Assembly: GCA_948759685.1 (NCBI GenBank)
Contig: CAQBGY010000249.1
Coordinates: 1 to 5,402, forward strand
Direction of reading: 5' to 3'
DNA length: 5,402 bases
From: an uncultured Eubacterium sp.
Lineage (GTDB): Bacteria; Bacillota_A; Clostridia; Lachnospirales; Lachnospiraceae
This document shows, in pieces, positions 1 through 5,402 of the stretch. The notes beneath the pieces were generated by a model that saw nothing but the letters and a program-made list of their open reading frames with translations, was not told the DNA's origin and did no database searches. The translations under genes were made by a program, and so were the position numbers. Every line of letters starts with the position of its first letter. Position 1 is the stretch's first letter.

Positions 1-12
1 CTCTTCCGATCT
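1..12. other. Illumina adapter remnant at contig end
   Basis: The first 12 bases, CTCTTCCGATCT, equal the 3' end shared by the standard Illumina read 1 and read 2 adapters. A perfect match placed exactly at base 1 points to untrimmed adapter and not to genome. Genomic sequence should be taken to start at about base 13. Confidence 0.88.
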
Positions 13-49: not shown

Positions 50-763
50 GTGTTTAAGATAGCCATTTGTGATGATGAGCAGGAATTCATCGTCGAATTA
101 AAGCAAAATTTAAGAAGATATGCAGATGAAACGGATAAGACTTTCTGCTTTTTTGAGTTCAAGGATGGAACGGAACTGCTCAAAGATTATCAGCCGGACT
201 TTGACTTGATTTTTATGGATATAAAGATGGAAAAGCTGAACGGTTTAAAGACAGCGGAAGAAATTCGCAGGATGGACAGTACCGTTGGACTTATTTTCTT
301 AACCTCTTTGAAGAAATATGTATGGAGGGGTTATGAATACGGTGCAGTTAATTACCTTTTGAAACCTGTGAAATACGGTGTTCTGAAAATGGAGCTTGAC
401 CGCTATTTTGCCCGCTATCAAGGAAAAGATGAGCCGTATGTGAGCTTTCAGAACGACAGCGGTAAATATAAGGTGCTGTATAAAAATCTCTGCTATGCGG
501 AAACTGCTAAGCGAAATGTAATGCTGCATTTTGAGGGACAGCAGCAGATAATCTACAAAAATATGAAAGAAGTATCTGCCCTGCTTTTAAGCCAGCCACA
601 GTTTGCCTGTCCGCATCAGAGTTTTGTAGTCAATATGGCTTATGTAAAAAGTGTGGAGAACTTGGAAATTGTGATGACCACAGGAAAGCGTGTTCCAATT
701 AGTCAGCCTAAGCGTAAGGACTTTATGATAAAGCTGACGGACTTTTGGGGGGATATGCTGTAA
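50..763 (+). CDS. LytTR-family response regulator (AgrA/ComE/VirR-like)
   Basis: A 237-residue cytoplasmic transcription regulator of two-component type, starting at GTG. The N-terminal receiver domain (about 1-122) shows the acidic pair D8/D9, the likely phosphoacceptor D57 in LIFMDIKM, the switch residue T85 in IFLTS, and the conserved K105-P106. The C-terminal part (about 130-235) has LytTR DNA-binding landmarks: HQSFVVNMAYVKSV at 189-202 and VPISQPKRKDF at 215-225. The length is usual for AgrA-type regulators. Its stop codon TAA overlaps the ATG of the first kinase by one base, so it is translationally coupled to its partners. LytTR proteins bind paired direct repeats about 21 bp apart, and such a pair lies before the ABC transporter at 3453-3494, which is the inferred target. 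The family call is firm; the target and the activating signal are inference. Confidence 0.95.
   Translation: MFKIAICDDEQEFIVELKQNLRRYADETDKTFCFFEFKDGTELLKDYQPDFDLIFMDIKMEKLNGLKTAEEIRRMDSTVGLIFLTSLKKYVWRGYEYGAVNYLLKPVKYGVLKMELDRYFARYQGKDEPYVSFQNDSGKYKVLYKNLCYAETAKRNVMLHFEGQQQIIYKNMKEVSALLLSQPQFACPHQSFVVNMAYVKSVENLEIVMTTGKRVPISQPKRKDFMIKLTDFWGDML
747..753 (+). promoter_or_regulatory. Ribosome binding site setting the first kinase start
   Basis: GGGGGGA lies inside the end of the regulator gene, 9 nt before ATG at 763. A TTG at 745 is in frame, but this site would then sit inside the coding sequence rather than upstream of it. The protein from 763 begins MWVYQCLDI, the same first nine residues as the second kinase, so 763 is preferred. 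Confidence 0.7.
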
Positions 764-2088
764 TGTGGGTTTATCAATGCTTGGATATTATATCAACACT
801 GACAGAGGGTTGGGGGTTATATTTTTTTAGTACGTTCTTTTGTAAGAAGCCAAGATTTCAGTCTTGTATAAATAAATGGATTATAATAGGTGGCTTTTTT
901 GCATTTGTTTTCAGTTTAACATGGTTTTCTGAATTGGGAGCATATAAAATACCAATTATTTATGCTGTATCAGTTATTGTTGTGAAAATATGCTATAAAG
1001 ATTCTCTTTATCAGTGTATTATCAGTTATGAGATGTCTATAACGACGATAACAATGTTATCAGAAGGTATAGGTACACTTTTGGGAAAATTTTTGTATGG
1101 AGAAAATATACTTGTCCTGATAGATGGTACATCTTTTTTGCGGTGGGAAACATATATCATGACTTTGTTAGTGAGAGGTTTGACATTCTTGGTATTATAC
1201 AGAATATGTAGGAAGTTTACTTATCAGTTTAACCTGAAAGATTTTTTGATTATTACATTTGTTTTTATCACAGGTTACATAAGTTTTATGTATAGTGCTG
1301 TCGAAAACCTAAATTTTCACAAAGTATCGGATGGCATGATATATTTCATTGCGGCAATTTTTCCTGTACTCGTTGTCTTGATTTTCCTGTATGTCAAAAA
1401 TACGGTACGTCTCCGTGAGCAGGAACAGAAAGATAAGATACAGATTGCACAGCTTCAACAACAGTTTGCCTACTATCAGGAAAAGCTAAAGGACGAAGAA
1501 AAAGTACGCTCCGTGTACCACGACATGAAAAATCATCTGCTTGTCTTGCAAAGACATATCTTACAGCGGCAGATTAACTCTCCCGAAACGACGGAGATGG
1601 TAGAAAAACTGCAATCACGGGTGGCAATGTATGAGGACTATGTGCATACGGGCAACGATATTCTGGACATCATTTTAAAAGAAAAATCCGAGCTTGCCAG
1701 AGAAAAGAGTATCGCTTTCTCTGTTACCGCCGACCTTAACGGCGTGGACTTTATAGAACCGCTTGATATTAGCACTATTTTCAGCAATGCCTTGGATAAT
1801 GCCATTGAAGCAAGCGAAAAGCTGCCGGAGGAACAGAGGGCAATCCTTGTGAAGGCGGGAAAAATGCAAAACTTCTTTTCGGTTTTGATTGAAAATAACT
1901 GCTTGCAGAATAGTGAAAATACAAATATCCGCACTACAAAGAGCGACGATTTTCTTCACGGTTTCGGCATCTCCAATATGCGAAAAGCCGCTGAAAAATA
2001 TGATGGTCAGTTGATAACCAAGTCTGAAAATGGGAAATTTGTTTTGAAGATTTTGCTGCCGATACCAGCAAGGTTGGAGGTGCAGTAA
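763..2088 (+). CDS. AgrC/ComD-type (HPK10) membrane sensor histidine kinase, copy 1
   Basis: A 441-residue membrane kinase that should phosphorylate the LytTR regulator just upstream. Residues 1 to about 211 form a hydrophobic sensor with six or seven likely membrane helices (clear ones near 40-58, 62-77, 132-149, 160-178 and 192-211). A hydrophilic, probably coiled-coil stretch at about 216-250 leads to the H-box VYHDMKNHL with H253 as the phosphoacceptor. The GHKL ATPase domain follows, with the N-box SNALDNAIEA at 341-350 and the G-box HGFGISNMR at 399-407. The HDxKN and DNAIEA motifs are typical of AgrC/ComD-like kinases. From Q220 to Y413 the protein is identical to the next gene, while the sensor half is only about 39% identical. 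The tail ends with a six-residue extension (ARLEVQ) absent from copy 2. GC is about 29% in the early sensor part and about 44% in the kinase part. The ligand is unknown. Confidence 0.93.
   Translation: MWVYQCLDIISTLTEGWGLYFFSTFFCKKPRFQSCINKWIIIGGFFAFVFSLTWFSELGAYKIPIIYAVSVIVVKICYKDSLYQCIISYEMSITTITMLSEGIGTLLGKFLYGENILVLIDGTSFLRWETYIMTLLVRGLTFLVLYRICRKFTYQFNLKDFLIITFVFITGYISFMYSAVENLNFHKVSDGMIYFIAAIFPVLVVLIFLYVKNTVRLREQEQKDKIQIAQLQQQFAYYQEKLKDEEKVRSVYHDMKNHLLVLQRHILQRQINSPETTEMVEKLQSRVAMYEDYVHTGNDILDIILKEKSELAREKSIAFSVTADLNGVDFIEPLDISTIFSNALDNAIEASEKLPEEQRAILVKAGKMQNFFSVLIENNCLQNSENTNIRTTKSDDFLHGFGISNMRKAAEKYDGQLITKSENGKFVLKILLPIPARLEVQ
1420..1955 (+). repeat. 536-bp perfect direct repeat, copy A (kinase half of copy 1)
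   Basis: This stretch is identical, base for base by eye, to 2747-3282, at an offset of 1327 bp. It covers residues 220-398 of the first kinase: coiled coil, H-box and N-box. The left edge is abrupt, because the codons just before 1420 are largely different. The right edge is gradual: the first differences (at 1956, 1968, 1998 and 2001) are synonymous, and amino-acid changes begin at codon 414. This pattern suggests recent gene conversion or segment duplication. Confidence 0.95.
2076..2080 (+). promoter_or_regulatory. Ribosome binding site of the second kinase
   Basis: GGAGG lies within the last codons of the first kinase, 9 nt before ATG at 2090. Only one base separates the stop TAA (2086-2088) from this ATG, so the two kinases are very probably translated from the same message. 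Confidence 0.75.
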
Positions 2089-2089
2089 A

Positions 2090-3397
2090 ATGTGGGTTTA
2101 TCAATGTTTGGATATATTGAGTACAGTAGTAGAGATGGTTTGTCTTTATATTATCAGTGGAATTTTGCTGAAAGAAACCCGCTTTCATACACCATTATGT
2201 AAATATATCCCGCCGATTATAATGTTTATGCTTACTTGGATATTAACTTGGTTTTCGGAGCTCGGTGCATTCAAAATGCCAATCATTTTTACATTGGCTG
2301 TAATACTATTGAAAATCGGCTACAAAGAGTCCATCTACCAGAGTATTATTGTTACAGAAATATGGTTTGTCTGCTGTGTTTTTTTTACGGAAGTGTTTTT
2401 GTATCTAATATCAAAATTCGTATATAACGATACGGTTTTTGTTATGGTAGATGGTCAAAACATGCTGCGTTGGGAAACTTATGTTGATGGAATTGCTGTG
2501 CGTATTATATCAGTTGTTGTTATTTGTGCGGTGTTAAAAAACTTCAAATACAAAATCAAAGCGAATGACTGTGCTGTTTTATCAACAGTTTTTATGATAG
2601 GGTTTACTGTGTTTATGTTCAGTGTCTATAATGTCTTGAACTTAAATAAAATACCCCATATGCTTATTATTGTGGGTATGGCAATTTTCACATTTACTTA
2701 TCTTGTCGTTTTTCTGTATTCTAAAAATACACTTTATTTTCGAGATCAGGAACAGAAAGATAAGATACAGATTGCACAGCTTCAACAACAGTTTGCCTAC
2801 TATCAGGAAAAGCTAAAGGACGAAGAAAAAGTACGCTCCGTGTACCACGACATGAAAAATCATCTGCTTGTCTTGCAAAGACATATCTTACAGCGGCAGA
2901 TTAACTCTCCCGAAACGACGGAGATGGTAGAAAAACTGCAATCACGGGTGGCAATGTATGAGGACTATGTGCATACGGGCAACGATATTCTGGACATCAT
3001 TTTAAAAGAAAAATCCGAGCTTGCCAGAGAAAAGAGTATCGCTTTCTCTGTTACCGCCGACCTTAACGGCGTGGACTTTATAGAACCGCTTGATATTAGC
3101 ACTATTTTCAGCAATGCCTTGGATAATGCCATTGAAGCAAGCGAAAAGCTGCCGGAGGAACAGAGGGCAATCCTTGTGAAGGCGGGAAAAATGCAAAACT
3201 TCTTTTCGGTTTTGATTGAAAATAACTGCTTGCAGAATAGTGAAAATACAAATATCCGCACTACAAAGAGCGACGATTTTCTCCACGGTTTCGGTATCTC
3301 CAATATGCGAAAAGCCGCTGAAAAGTACGGCGGTCAGTTGACAACCAAATATGAAAAAGGCACATTCACCTTAAAAATCCTAATACCAATTCCATAA
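2090..3397 (+). CDS. AgrC/ComD-type (HPK10) membrane sensor histidine kinase, copy 2
   Basis: A 435-residue paralogue of the preceding kinase with the same layout and the same residue numbering up to about residue 420. The hydrophobic sensor half occupies 1 to about 211, then linker, H-box with H253, N-box 341-350 and G-box 399-407. Three islands are shared by the otherwise diverged sensors: MWVYQCLDI (1-9), LTWFSELGA (52-60) and LRWETY (126-131). Elsewhere the sensor differs strongly, for example no residue is shared at 91-100, so it may recognise another ligand or variant. The whole 220-413 region, including all phosphotransfer and ATP-binding motifs visible there, is identical to copy 1. 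Both kinases should therefore be able to use the same response regulator, and their identical dimerisation helices could allow heterodimers (inference). It is the last gene before a terminator. No response regulator of its own is visible. Confidence 0.93.
   Translation: MWVYQCLDILSTVVEMVCLYIISGILLKETRFHTPLCKYIPPIIMFMLTWILTWFSELGAFKMPIIFTLAVILLKIGYKESIYQSIIVTEIWFVCCVFFTEVFLYLISKFVYNDTVFVMVDGQNMLRWETYVDGIAVRIISVVVICAVLKNFKYKIKANDCAVLSTVFMIGFTVFMFSVYNVLNLNKIPHMLIIVGMAIFTFTYLVVFLYSKNTLYFRDQEQKDKIQIAQLQQQFAYYQEKLKDEEKVRSVYHDMKNHLLVLQRHILQRQINSPETTEMVEKLQSRVAMYEDYVHTGNDILDIILKEKSELAREKSIAFSVTADLNGVDFIEPLDISTIFSNALDNAIEASEKLPEEQRAILVKAGKMQNFFSVLIENNCLQNSENTNIRTTKSDDFLHGFGISNMRKAAEKYGGQLTTKYEKGTFTLKILIPIP
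2747..3282 (+). repeat. 536-bp perfect direct repeat, copy B (kinase half of copy 2)
   Basis: Partner of 1420-1955 with no mismatch seen over 536 bp. It starts at codon 220 of the second kinase, in the same reading frame as copy A. Recombination between the two copies would remove 1327 bp and leave one intact kinase carrying the sensor of copy 1 and the tail of copy 2. Confidence 0.95.
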
Positions 3398-3414
3398 AGA
3401 TTATAACTTACGAG

Positions 3415-3445
3415 CCTGTTGTCTATTACGGACAGCAGGTTTTTT
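3415..3445 (+). terminator. Rho-independent terminator after the kinase genes
   Basis: CCTGTTGTC (3415-3423) pairs with GACAGCAGG (3431-3439) in a 9-bp stem with one G-U pair, around the 7-nt loop TATTACG. Six T residues (3440-3445) follow at once. It begins 17 nt after the second kinase stop. It should end the regulatory transcript and separate it from the ABC transporter genes. Confidence 0.88.
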
Positions 3446-3452
3446 CAATGCT

Positions 3453-3494
3453 TGAATATTAGAATTTGCGTTCTGAATATTAGAAACTGCGTCG
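3453..3494. promoter_or_regulatory. Two tandem 21-bp direct repeats, candidate LytTR operator
   Basis: Units 3453-3473 and 3474-3494 match at 17 of 21 positions (TGAATATTAGAAnnTGCGT common to both). They lie back to back, so equivalent bases are 21 bp apart, about two turns of the helix. LytTR regulators such as AgrA and ComE are known to bind two direct repeats with this kind of spacing. On the bottom strand, unit 2 reads GCAGTTTCT and unit 1 GCAAATTCT, loosely like the CAGTT core of known sites. Their place, after the terminator and just before the transporter promoter, fits an activator site for the regulator encoded at 50-763. Binding is inferred. Confidence 0.65.
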
Positions 3495-3498
3495 GCTA

Positions 3499-3526
3499 TT
3501 GTATCTTTTATAAAATAGGATATGAT
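3499..3526 (+). promoter_or_regulatory. Probable promoter of the ABC transporter operon
   Basis: TTGTAT (3499-3504) and TATGAT (3521-3526), 16 bp apart, resemble the -35 and -10 boxes of the main sigma factor. The -35 is weak, as expected for an activator-dependent promoter. The 21-bp repeats end 4 bp before it. TATAAA at 3509-3514 is a rival -10 box but lacks a good -35. Transcription would start near 3533, about 30 nt before the ATPase start codon. Confidence 0.45.
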
Positions 3527-3563: not shown

Positions 3564-4229
3564 ATGTCAATATTAAATGCAACCCATTTGAAAAAATACT
3601 ATGGTAAGGATGAGAGCCTTGTCAAAGCTCTGGATGATGTGAATGTGTCCGTAAAGAACGGTCAATTTGTTGCCATTATTGGTACATCGGGCAGTGGTAA
3701 ATCTACTTTGCTCAATATGCTTGGCGGATTGGATATCCCTACTTCTGGCAGTGTTAAGGTGGAGGATAAAAGTCTTGAAAAACTTACAGAGGAACAGCTC
3801 ACGGTGTTCCGCCGTCAGCGTATCGGTTTCATTTTTCAGAATTACAACCTTATTCCGTATCTTACGGCGTATGAAAATATCGTGCTTCCTGTCCGCCTGG
3901 ATGGCAAGATAGAGGATAAAAAGTTTTTGAAAGAAATCGTACATTTCTTGGAACTTGACGGGAAACTTTCTAATTACCCGAGCCATCTTTCAGGCGGTCA
4001 GCAGCAGAGGGTGGCGATTGCCCGTGCATTAGTGTCAAAACCTGCAATTATCTTAGCCGATGAACCAACGGGAAACCTTGACAGCCGCACAAGCGATAAA
4101 GTTATCGACCTTTTGAAAATGACGAGTGAGAAGTTCAATCAGACTATCGTTATGATTACCCACAATCCTGAAATTGCTGGAAAGGCGGATGTGAGAATAC
4201 GTATTGAAGATGGGAAAATAGCGGGATAA
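3564..4229 (+). CDS. ABC transporter ATP-binding protein, MacB/LolD/FtsE type
   Basis: A 221-residue cytoplasmic ATPase that would power the FtsX-type permease encoded next. Every core motif is present: Walker A GTSGSGKST (40-48, K46), Q-loop Q92 in FIFQNYNL, signature LSGGQQQR (142-149), Walker B IILADEP (162-168, catalytic E167), D-loop NLDS (171-174) and switch H200 in MITH. The length and the sequence around the signature fit the small ATPases of the MacB/LolD/BceA group, which act in export or in mechanical work on envelope substrates rather than nutrient uptake. The permease starts 14 nt after its stop. It is the first gene after the terminator and the direct-repeat operator, so it heads its own transcript, probably under the LytTR regulator. 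The substrate is not readable from the sequence; antimicrobial peptide export or resistance is one common role of such regulator-linked pairs. Confidence 0.95.
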   Translation: MSILNATHLKKYYGKDESLVKALDDVNVSVKNGQFVAIIGTSGSGKSTLLNMLGGLDIPTSGSVKVEDKSLEKLTEEQLTVFRRQRIGFIFQNYNLIPYLTAYENIVLPVRLDGKIEDKKFLKEIVHFLELDGKLSNYPSHLSGGQQQRVAIARALVSKPAIILADEPTGNLDSRTSDKVIDLLKMTSEKFNQTIVMITHNPEIAGKADVRIRIEDGKIAG

Positions 4230-4243
4230 GGGAGGTAATCGGA

Positions 4244-5402
4244 ATGAACAATAAAAAGATAACGGCAAAAATGATTTCTTTGATGTCAAAGCAGAGCTTG
4301 AAATCAAGCCGTATGCGTAACCTGTTTGTGATGATTACCATTGTCTTGGCATCGGCTCTCTTGACCACAATCCTTATGTTTGCGATAGGACAAAAACAGC
4401 AGGTTAAAAACGACCTATCCCATAGACAGCAGGTAGGCTACTATAACCTTACCAATGAACAGGTAGAAATGCTGAAAGCAGATGACCGCATTGCTTATCA
4501 GATACAGGCGAAAACAGGTATCCTTTCCCAGATGGACGGCTTTGATGTCATGCCGTATTATGTGAGCGAGTTGTCCGATAAAATCCAAATCGGCGAACTG
4601 CTTGAAGGAAAACTCCCCGAAAAAGAAGATGAAATTGCTGCACAAGCGGCTATGCTTAAAAAGATGGGTGTCGAGCCTGGGGTTGGAAGCAGCGTGACTT
4701 TTACCTTTTATGATGGCAGCACCGAAACTTTTAGGGTATCGGGTATCTTAAATGGCAGCGATACGGCAAAGCAGTTTTCCGTATTCTTCTCTGAAAATTA
4801 TGCACAAAACGGCAGTCAGTTAAAAGATATGCCGTATGAGGTTTATGCAAAGTTGTACGGTGCAACAACAATGCATCCTGAAGATTGTAAAGAAGAGATG
4901 TACTTAATCGGAAGTGACGCAGGGATTGAAAGAAAATATGTCAGTCCTTCAAAGTCATTTATTGAGTCACTGTCTGTGGATACACAGTCTGTGATGGTTT
5001 ATGGTATGGTTGGAGCGGTTATTCTGCTTGCGTGTATCCTTGTGATTTATGGTGTGTTTTATCTCTCCGTCATCGGGAGAATACATCAGTTTGGGCAGCT
5101 TTGCACCATTGGTATGACAAAGAAGCAGATGAAAAGATTTGTTTCCCGTGAGGGGGGTGTATTGTATCTTCGCTCAGCTCCTATCGGTATTTTGATTGGC
5201 GGAATTGCAGGATATTTTATTATCCCCGACGGCTTTAACATCGTGAACACCCTTTTGATAATCGCTCTCGTATTTTCGGTTATCTATGTTATTACAATGA
5301 TTTCGGTACGCAAACCTGCTCGACTTGCGGCGGCTGTTTCGCCGATGGAGGCACTCCGCTATGTACCGCAGGACGGTATGAAAAAGGGTGCGAACAAGAA
5401 AC
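4244..5402 (+). CDS. ABC transporter permease, FtsX family (3' end cut by window)
   Basis: The frame starts at ATG 4244, 8 nt after GGGAGG (4230-4235), and stays open for 386 codons to the edge without a stop, so the gene is partial. The visible protein has a basic N-terminus, a first membrane helix at about 27-49, an extracytoplasmic domain of about 200 residues (50-248), and three more helices near 249-277, 305-327 and 333-355. The stretch IGRIHQFGQLCTIGMTKKQ (278-296) resembles the cytoplasmic coupling segment of FtsX domains, and KPARLAAAVSPMEALRY (357-373) resembles their usual end. A large domain after helix 1 is a MacB/FtsX-like layout, unlike BceB, where the large domain sits late. 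The basic run at 380-386 (KKGANKK) may be a linker to a second FtsX half, giving an eight-helix protein, or the protein may end soon as a four-helix form. The window cannot decide. Confidence 0.9.
   Translation, partial: MNNKKITAKMISLMSKQSLKSSRMRNLFVMITIVLASALLTTILMFAIGQKQQVKNDLSHRQQVGYYNLTNEQVEMLKADDRIAYQIQAKTGILSQMDGFDVMPYYVSELSDKIQIGELLEGKLPEKEDEIAAQAAMLKKMGVEPGVGSSVTFTFYDGSTETFRVSGILNGSDTAKQFSVFFSENYAQNGSQLKDMPYEVYAKLYGATTMHPEDCKEEMYLIGSDAGIERKYVSPSKSFIESLSVDTQSVMVYGMVGAVILLACILVIYGVFYLSVIGRIHQFGQLCTIGMTKKQMKRFVSREGGVLYLRSAPIGILIGGIAGYFIIPDGFNIVNTLLIIALVFSVIYVITMISVRKPARLAAAVSPMEALRYVPQDGMKKGANKK

Follow-up and report, generated by a model that had tools for sequence, protein, structure and literature searches.

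Comparison with described systems

AgrC/AgrA systems have one kinase each, plus an agrBD peptide gene. Here we describe a 5,402-nucleotide stretch of DNA from an uncultured Eubacterium sp. (contig CAQBGY010000249.1; this whole stretch is hereafter the window) in which a GHKL kinase likewise adjoins a LytTR response regulator. Unlike AgrC/AgrA, the window and its related loci carry one, two or three kinases (L002, L003 and L004, respectively, are examples) with an ABC exporter downstream, the window itself having two, HK1 and HK2. No agrB or agrD peptide gene was seen among window open reading frames (ORFs) of at least 80 aa, short ORFs not being searched. The sensor halves of HK1 and HK2 are diverged but their output halves share an identical block of 536 bp, and we consider it probable that the output halves were homogenised by gene conversion, whilst the sensors were free to diverge.

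Gene conversion from a segmental duplication has reportedly hit a two-component gene, ntrX of Ehrlichia ruminantium; that case is said to concern one gene altered in one passaged strain, and so differs from tandem kinases with differing sensors. The pairing of a variable sensor with a uniform signalling half is already a known concept from the Group A Tlps of Campylobacter jejuni (Tlp2-4 and 11), which are reported to have different ligand-binding halves and near-identical C-terminal signalling halves forming DNA repeats (PMC6433261). Recombination of Tlps was also reported there, with an identical Tlp11 N-terminus joined to an alternative C-terminus in 2/5 genomes (PMC6433261). The window kinases are alike in this respect, but the Tlps are chemoreceptors rather than kinases, their repeats are tied to inversions of large chromosome segments and not to tandem genes in an operon that has a single response regulator, and the main text of that paper does not use the term gene conversion (PMC6433261). 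EnvZ/OmpR paralogues, as described in a second report, also involve kinase duplication with specificity set at the phosphotransfer interface; there, however, the interfaces diverge and the pathways separate, whereas the window appears to have a homogenised interface and keeps a single regulator gene (PMC9208753). Among the open-licence papers listed that link kinases or sensors to gene conversion or to concerted evolution, no title or abstract opening dealt with tandem kinases with conversion-homogenised outputs and one regulator.

HK1 and HK2 share an identical block in their output halves

HK1 and HK2 were scanned against each other over 700-2100 at a fixed offset of 1327, and exact runs of at least 12 bases were reported. 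These lay at 762-779 (18 bp), 1420-1955 (536 bp) and 1969-1997 (29 bp). The longest matched 2747-3282 with zero mismatches in 536 bp, which confirmed the claim of an earlier note, made from the sequence alone, that the two segments lack even silent differences. Its count of 86/219 identical residues between the sensors was also reproduced. The features concerned are:

53..763, + strand: LytTR response regulator (Response_reg 6.9e-16, LytTR 1.2e-12; ORF listed from a GTG at 50)
763..2088, + strand: HK1, AgrC-type GHKL sensor kinase, position 1 (441 aa; HATPase_c_5 1.2e-27)
763..1401, + strand: HK1 sensor half (codons 1-213, predicted membrane helices)
1420..1955, + strand: identical output block, copy 1 (codons 220-398; holds the linker helix, the H-box (H253) and the N-box (342), and reaches into the low-confidence stretch 382-400)
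1546..1575, + strand: imperfect 15-bp duplication LQRHI/LQRQI, copy 1 (HK1 codons 262-271)
1956..2088, + strand: kinase 1 tail, ending RLEVQ (its coding bases hold a Shine-Dalgarno-like GGAGG ahead of HK2)
2090..3397, + strand: HK2, AgrC-type GHKL sensor kinase, position 2 (435 aa; HATPase_c_5 1.1e-27)
2090..2728, + strand: HK2 sensor half (codons 1-213)
2747..3282, + strand: identical output block, copy 2 (exact match to copy 1)
2873..2902, + strand: 15-bp duplication, copy 2 (copy 1 + offset 1327)
3283..3397, + strand: kinase 2 tail, ending LIPIP

Across codons 220-399, 179/180 were identical and one carried a silent change; codons 400-435 comprised 17 identical codons, 12 silent changes and 7 replacement changes. 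The identical block forms an island flanked by divergent sequence, the divergence being deep at the 5′ side and at the level of silent sites at the 3′ side. When the output half (648 sites, 25 differences) was permuted, 0/20,000 permutations reached a run of 536 bp. The renewed divergence of the kinase 3′ ends, and an adapter remnant with which the contig opens, had not been remarked upon in the earlier note.

Both kinases keep YHDMKNH at 252, NALDNAIEAS at 342 and HGFGISNM at 399, which we take to be the phospho-acceptor histidine motif, the N-box and the G-box, respectively. The linker helix, the helix of the phospho-acceptor (H253) and the N-box (342) all fall inside the island, whose last codon is 398, just ahead of the G-box (399). 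The stretch of the structural model in which it ends (382-400, low confidence) is presumably the ATP lid.

A bounded tract in the kinases of Faecalimonas umbilicata

Two related loci belong to named strains: L003, from Faecalimonas umbilicata DSM 103426, has kinases a and b, and L002, from Mediterraneibacter massiliensis, has b only. The two loci were 97% identical over b and the downstream sequence (4827 bp) and 93% identical upstream (817 bp). Kinase b of L002 and L003b differed at 53 sites, 33 of them within alignment columns 779-980, an output tract of approximately 200 bp. Inside this tract L003b matched L003a at 27/33 of the sites differing from L002; beyond it the two agreed at 4/20 differing sites (1/10, 0/2, 1/3 and 2/5). 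Such clustering of the matching sites was not reached in 20,000 permutations. In bins of 60 bases, L002 and L003b were 80-90% identical in 780-900 and 93-100% in the others, and L003a and L003b were 93-100% identical in 780-1020 and 64-87% in 1080-1260. At the level of sequence, these data show a bounded tract in L003 where paralogue b bears the sequence of its neighbor a, as gene conversion would leave it. Transfer from a to b is the simplest reading, because L003b is L002-like on both sides of the tract.

A five-residue insertion is shared by both kinases

The duplication LQRHI/LQRQI, present in both window kinases, starts nine residues past H253. Protein relatives were taken as the best 120 of 1839 matches, and the 5-aa insertion was found in 55 of these, all with sensors at least 98% identical to that of HK1 or HK2 (for P0007, the match rests on its 83 sensor residues). 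It was absent from the remaining 65, including sensor orthologues of HK1 (P0002 and P0003) and of HK2 (P0063 and P0116), and from 24/24 locus kinases. One insertion in one copy, then passed to the other copy, would explain this distribution. Three output haplotypes of HK1-type proteins (those of the window, P0001 and P0007) each recurred in HK2-type proteins, as would be expected if homogenisation recurs within the species and the paired proteins share a genome. In P0002 the sensor (80%) and the C-terminal extension both resemble those of HK1, yet the output lacks the insertion.

Output halves and sensors across tandem arrays

Five tandem arrays were found: the window (2 kinases), L003 (2), L004 (3), L009 (2, the second cut by the contig end) and G465 (2). 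Most loci in our ORF table had a single kinase. Pairwise comparison covered the DNA of 17 kinases; it omitted further single-kinase loci, and all loci had been found by similarity to HK2. The closest output DNA was that of an array-mate for 11/11 array kinases, and the closest sensor that of an array-mate for 0/11. Output DNA identity within arrays was 100, 92, 87, 84, 81, 79 and 76%; in the 122 between-locus pairs with sensors less than 45% identical it had a mean of 66% and a maximum of 88% (L002/L003a), the next being 79%. The fraction of shared residues encoded by the same codon was 0.62-1.00 within arrays versus a between-locus mean of 0.45 and maximum of 0.75, with overlapping ranges.

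Trees were constructed from 46 rows (2 window kinases, 24 locus kinases and 20 proteins hand-picked from the best 120 of 1839; G465 was left out). The sensor protein tree grouped by type, with HK1 beside P0002/P0003, HK2 beside P0063/P0116 and L003a beside L004a (approximately 70% identical), so that sensor types are spread over genomes in these sequences. In the output protein tree HK1 and HK2 stood together, and L004a, b and c fell in one starred group which also held P0088. Approximately unbiased (AU) tests rejected 6/6 contrary groupings (p-AU ≤ 2.3e-4); the first two left the identical HK1 and HK2 outputs free and rest on P0001, P0018 and P0039 with named orthologues, and the groups were named once the trees had been seen, on a principle that came from the earlier finding.

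With a cut-off of E 1e-60 or better, and with overlapping genome sets, HK2 matches were present in 13/397 genomes of the family of L003 and 2/392 of the order; by genus, they were present in 10/58 genomes for L002, 1/3 for L008, 2/10 for L003 and 1/4 for L004.

Two unusual kinase frames were also seen. In P0010 (554 aa) two sensor parts stand in series, one of P0071 type and the other a portion of the P0116 type, with a single output; a deletion between tandem kinases would yield such a fusion. At L035 6001-7292 the kinase frame is in two pieces and there is no matching ABC ATPase between kinase and permease; this is perhaps a decaying copy of the locus.

Tails of the kinases

The first kinases HK1 and L003a, whose sensors are unrelated, both end in RLEV(Q), and the second kinases HK2 and L003b end in IP; L004 kinases end differently again. 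The RLEVQ codons of the window contain GGAGGTGCAGTAAAATG, which holds the Shine-Dalgarno-like site and the start of HK2. An RLEV-like ending was absent in 9/10 S1-type kinases outside the window lineage, the tenth being P0002 with RLEGQ, which our tail rule classed with the non-RLEV group. A sensor type is, in these sequences, not bound to one tail. The same sensor type with both RLEV and IP tails was observed among P0008, P0039, P0063, P0065-P0069, P0078 and P0116. Such both-tail proteins (P0008/P0039 and the P0063 type) could be real tandem duplicates or assembler loops.

Gene conversion and alternative explanations

Gene conversion probably accounts for the locus, as follows. Two paralogous AgrC-type kinases lie between one LytTR regulator and the ABC exporter that it probably controls. 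Non-reciprocal gene conversion, a form of homologous recombination acting here on neighbouring copies, would have overwritten one output half with that of the other, the sensor halves being too diverged to join in. The extreme 3′ ends would have been kept different, plausibly since the tail of kinase 1 carries the ribosome-binding site of the next kinase: conversion across the tail would delete the Shine-Dalgarno-like site of HK2, and the tract may halt before the tail for this reason. The outcome would be domain-limited concerted evolution, in which sensors diverge and the phosphotransfer half stays matched to one regulator. We infer that conversion recurs in the window's species and that both kinases phosphorylate the regulator at 53-763, which would bind a 21-bp repeat upstream of the exporter (see below); the sensors may detect different, perhaps peptide, signals, with selection keeping the outputs matched.

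Several observations weigh against this explanation. Nine of the best 120 of 1839 proteins combine S2-type sensors with an RLEV tail, which a tract limited to the output half leaves unexplained, and tail identity over shared columns splits HK1-like from HK2-like proteins poorly (78-86%, proteins of other lineages), the distinction being carried by the C-terminal extension. At 6/33 differing sites of the L003 tract, L003a agrees with L002 instead of L003b. The outputs of L009 (79%) and G465 (76%) are no closer than the best between-locus pairs, and conversion in these two arrays is not shown by the sequences. In the output protein tree L003b grouped with P0004, P0006 and L002 and was not the sister of L003a (one unstarred group of six rows took in both), and the two L009 kinases, a and b, did not group. 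A short tract would give the split seen for L003; that of L009 counts against recent conversion there. The earlier note had proposed that outputs grouping by genome and sensors by position would reveal conversion; the window pair, L004 and the nearest-DNA comparison follow this pattern, but L003 and L009 do not in the output tree. Finally, the window comes from a single contig in which an adapter remnant is present, and its 536-bp repeat is longer than a typical short read; the identity of 100% may therefore be overstated, as bubble-popping could erase a few differences.

The earlier note had offered two origins for the pattern, gene conversion, which is supported here, and the joining of a foreign sensor to a copied kinase half, which fares less well. 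In the latter, one crossover at the linker would have given a recent kinase copy its foreign sensor, and conversion would not have acted since. Such a graft would suit the 5′ edge of the identity, which lies at the sensor/linker border (codon 220), the occurrence of sensor types with both tails, and the L003a and L004a sensors, whose outputs fall in different groups despite their similarity. However, one breakpoint would copy the tail too, yet 19/36 codons differ between the window tails; this, together with P0002, whose sensor and C-terminal extension are both HK1-like and whose output is different, and the L002-like sequence on both sides of the L003b tract, makes a simple graft unlikely. 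Slightly less likely again is an assembly artefact, in which two diverged kinase genes, or a single one, were collapsed or looped by a short-read assembler. The adapter remnant at 1-12 speaks for it, as do P0008 and P0039 (longest contig 3090 bp each), which share a sensor and carry different tails, the outcome to be expected of a loop through the repeat. But the junctions of sensor 1 with output, of tail 1 with sensor 2 and of tail 2 with the exporter are unique and, on reasoning, together need two kinases, a similar pattern with unequal copies occurs in the named isolate genome L003, and separate records, each with the insertion, exist for P0001 and P0007 of the HK1 lineage and for P0018 (279 contigs) of the HK2 lineage.

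An old duplication followed by strong purifying selection on the output half, with no recombination, is very improbable for the window. Outputs are intrinsically more conserved than sensors, as seen in the 122 between-locus pairs (sensors below 45%, output identity averaging 65% and reaching 91%), and such selection may suffice for L009 and G465. Set against it are the complete lack of silent differences in 178 whole codons, which agrees with the argument of the earlier note that uniform divergence after an old duplication cannot give the pattern, the higher same-codon fraction within arrays (albeit with overlapping ranges), the shared private insertion and the bounded L003 tract. The same sensor type with both tails leaves room for sensor exchange over the longer term.

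More speculatively, these loci might act as a sensor-shuffling device, in which recurrent conversion of the output block, together with crossover, would keep the kinases readable by one regulator and let sensors be tried, swapped and duplicated. This tentative idea stems from kinase numbers ranging from one to three, the pairing of one sensor type with either tail and the sensor-sensor fusion P0010. If it were true, homogenisation would be a selected force against pathway insulation, and an insertion in the presumed regulator-docking region would spread to all kinases of an array at once.

Duplicated two-component pathways are often studied for insulation, as in the report on EnvZ/OmpR paralogues (PMC9208753), and at the level of sequence the arrays show how the reverse could come about: were conversion limited to the phosphotransfer half, it would keep diverging sensors on one regulator. 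Relatives with one, two and three kinases, and the insertion near the phospho-acceptor common to both copies in one lineage, are natural material for comparison. For annotation, such repeats can break or chimerise short-read assemblies.

Kinase architecture and kinship with AgrC

The GHKL/HATPase_c_5 domain (PF14501) was matched by 28/28 aligned members. The HK1 model (mean predicted local distance difference test score 76, predicted template modeling score 0.52) had helices at 2-26, 36-55, 59-77, 82-116, 128-149 and 158-183 and the start of one at 190-269, so the sensor half as modeled fits membrane helices. A kinase sequence profile searched against the PDB up to E 0.01 gave AgrC 4bxi_A as the sole chain (E 0.0021), and HK2 alone gave no PDB match. 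The cytoplasmic part had AgrC among its fold matches 6e95, 6e52 and 4bxi (template modeling scores by target of 0.50, 0.50 and 0.71, respectively). By analogy, this kinship suggests peptide signals for the sensors.

Gene order and flanking features of the window

ORFs and domain matches placed all window genes on the + strand: LytTR regulator, HK1, HK2, ABC ATPase and FtsX-type permease, the regulator at 53-763 being the sole regulator gene seen in the window. The remaining features are:

1..12, + strand: adapter remnant, which we take to be Illumina (exact match at 1-12; 0/200 shuffles matched)
3412..3442, + strand: terminator-like hairpin then T run, 3′ of HK2 (-18.5 kcal/mol for 3409-3450; named by eye)
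3458..3491, + strand: 21-bp-period direct repeat, presumed LytTR operator (2/26 mismatches vs consensus)
3499..3526, + strand: promoter-like TTGTAT-16-TATGAT 5′ of the ABC gene (picked by eye)
3564..4229, + strand: ABC exporter ATPase (best NCBIfam scores of LolD/YbbA type, all under the curated cut-offs shown)
4244..5402, + strand: FtsX/MacB-type permease (runs past the window end)

The window opens approximately 50 bases 5′ of the regulator gene, with only about 40 bases between the adapter remnant and that gene. It is probably a contig assembled from a metagenome, and its relatives point to gut bacteria of a Lachnospiraceae-like kind. A sigma-70 scan of the window returned 16 sites vs 15.2 in shuffles and reported neither the promoter-like pair nor the hairpin. 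Megablast against plasmid and phage DNA gave zero matches to the window, protein searches gave 11 plasmid and 8 phage records, each below 60% identity, and IMG/VR contributed a single locus, L001, whose identities equal those of L006. The hairpin at 3412-3442 sits between HK2 and the operator-like repeat, and by eye the same sequence is present in L002 and L003.

Operator-like repeat and the exporter

Upstream of the exporter lies ATTAGAATTTGCG-8-ATTAGAAACTGCG, a direct repeat with a period of 21 bp, 7 bp ahead of the promoter-like pair. With at most 6/26 mismatches and at most 420 bases upstream of the exporter, the repeat was found in 21/29 exporter loci, comprising 19/23 of a first set, from which the consensus being scored was itself derived, and 2/6 further loci left out at first and scored later. 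In those 19 loci it was the best forward-strand match of the locus, and shuffling gave minimum mismatches of 7 (200 shuffled windows) and 8 (460 shuffled upstream stretches). The eight exporter loci lacking it were L016 (8 mismatches) and L023, L026, L027, L028, L031, L033 and L034 (10-12). For LytTR regulatory systems, the described sites are 9-bp direct repeats, for the most part separated by 12 bp, which tend to lie 10 bp upstream of the -35 (PMC6193735). In its spacing the window repeat fits this geometry, and it is a presumed operator. L002 and L003 retain the repeat, though their exporter ATPase is just 36% identical to that of the window. The single LytTR regulator and the operator-like repeat in 21/29 loci suggest a wiring of several sensors to one LytTR regulator and one exporter promoter.

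L002 and L003 join a different exporter to a closely related set of regulator, kinase and operator-like repeat, so exporters and control modules can apparently recombine. At 5959-6333 of L029 and L030, from Anaerobutyricum hallii and Coprococcus comes, there is an ORF of 124 aa resembling the kinase C-terminus (approximately 86% identical), followed at 6456 by a near-perfect direct repeat (1/26 mismatch) and then by a different ABC gene (approximately 27% identical).

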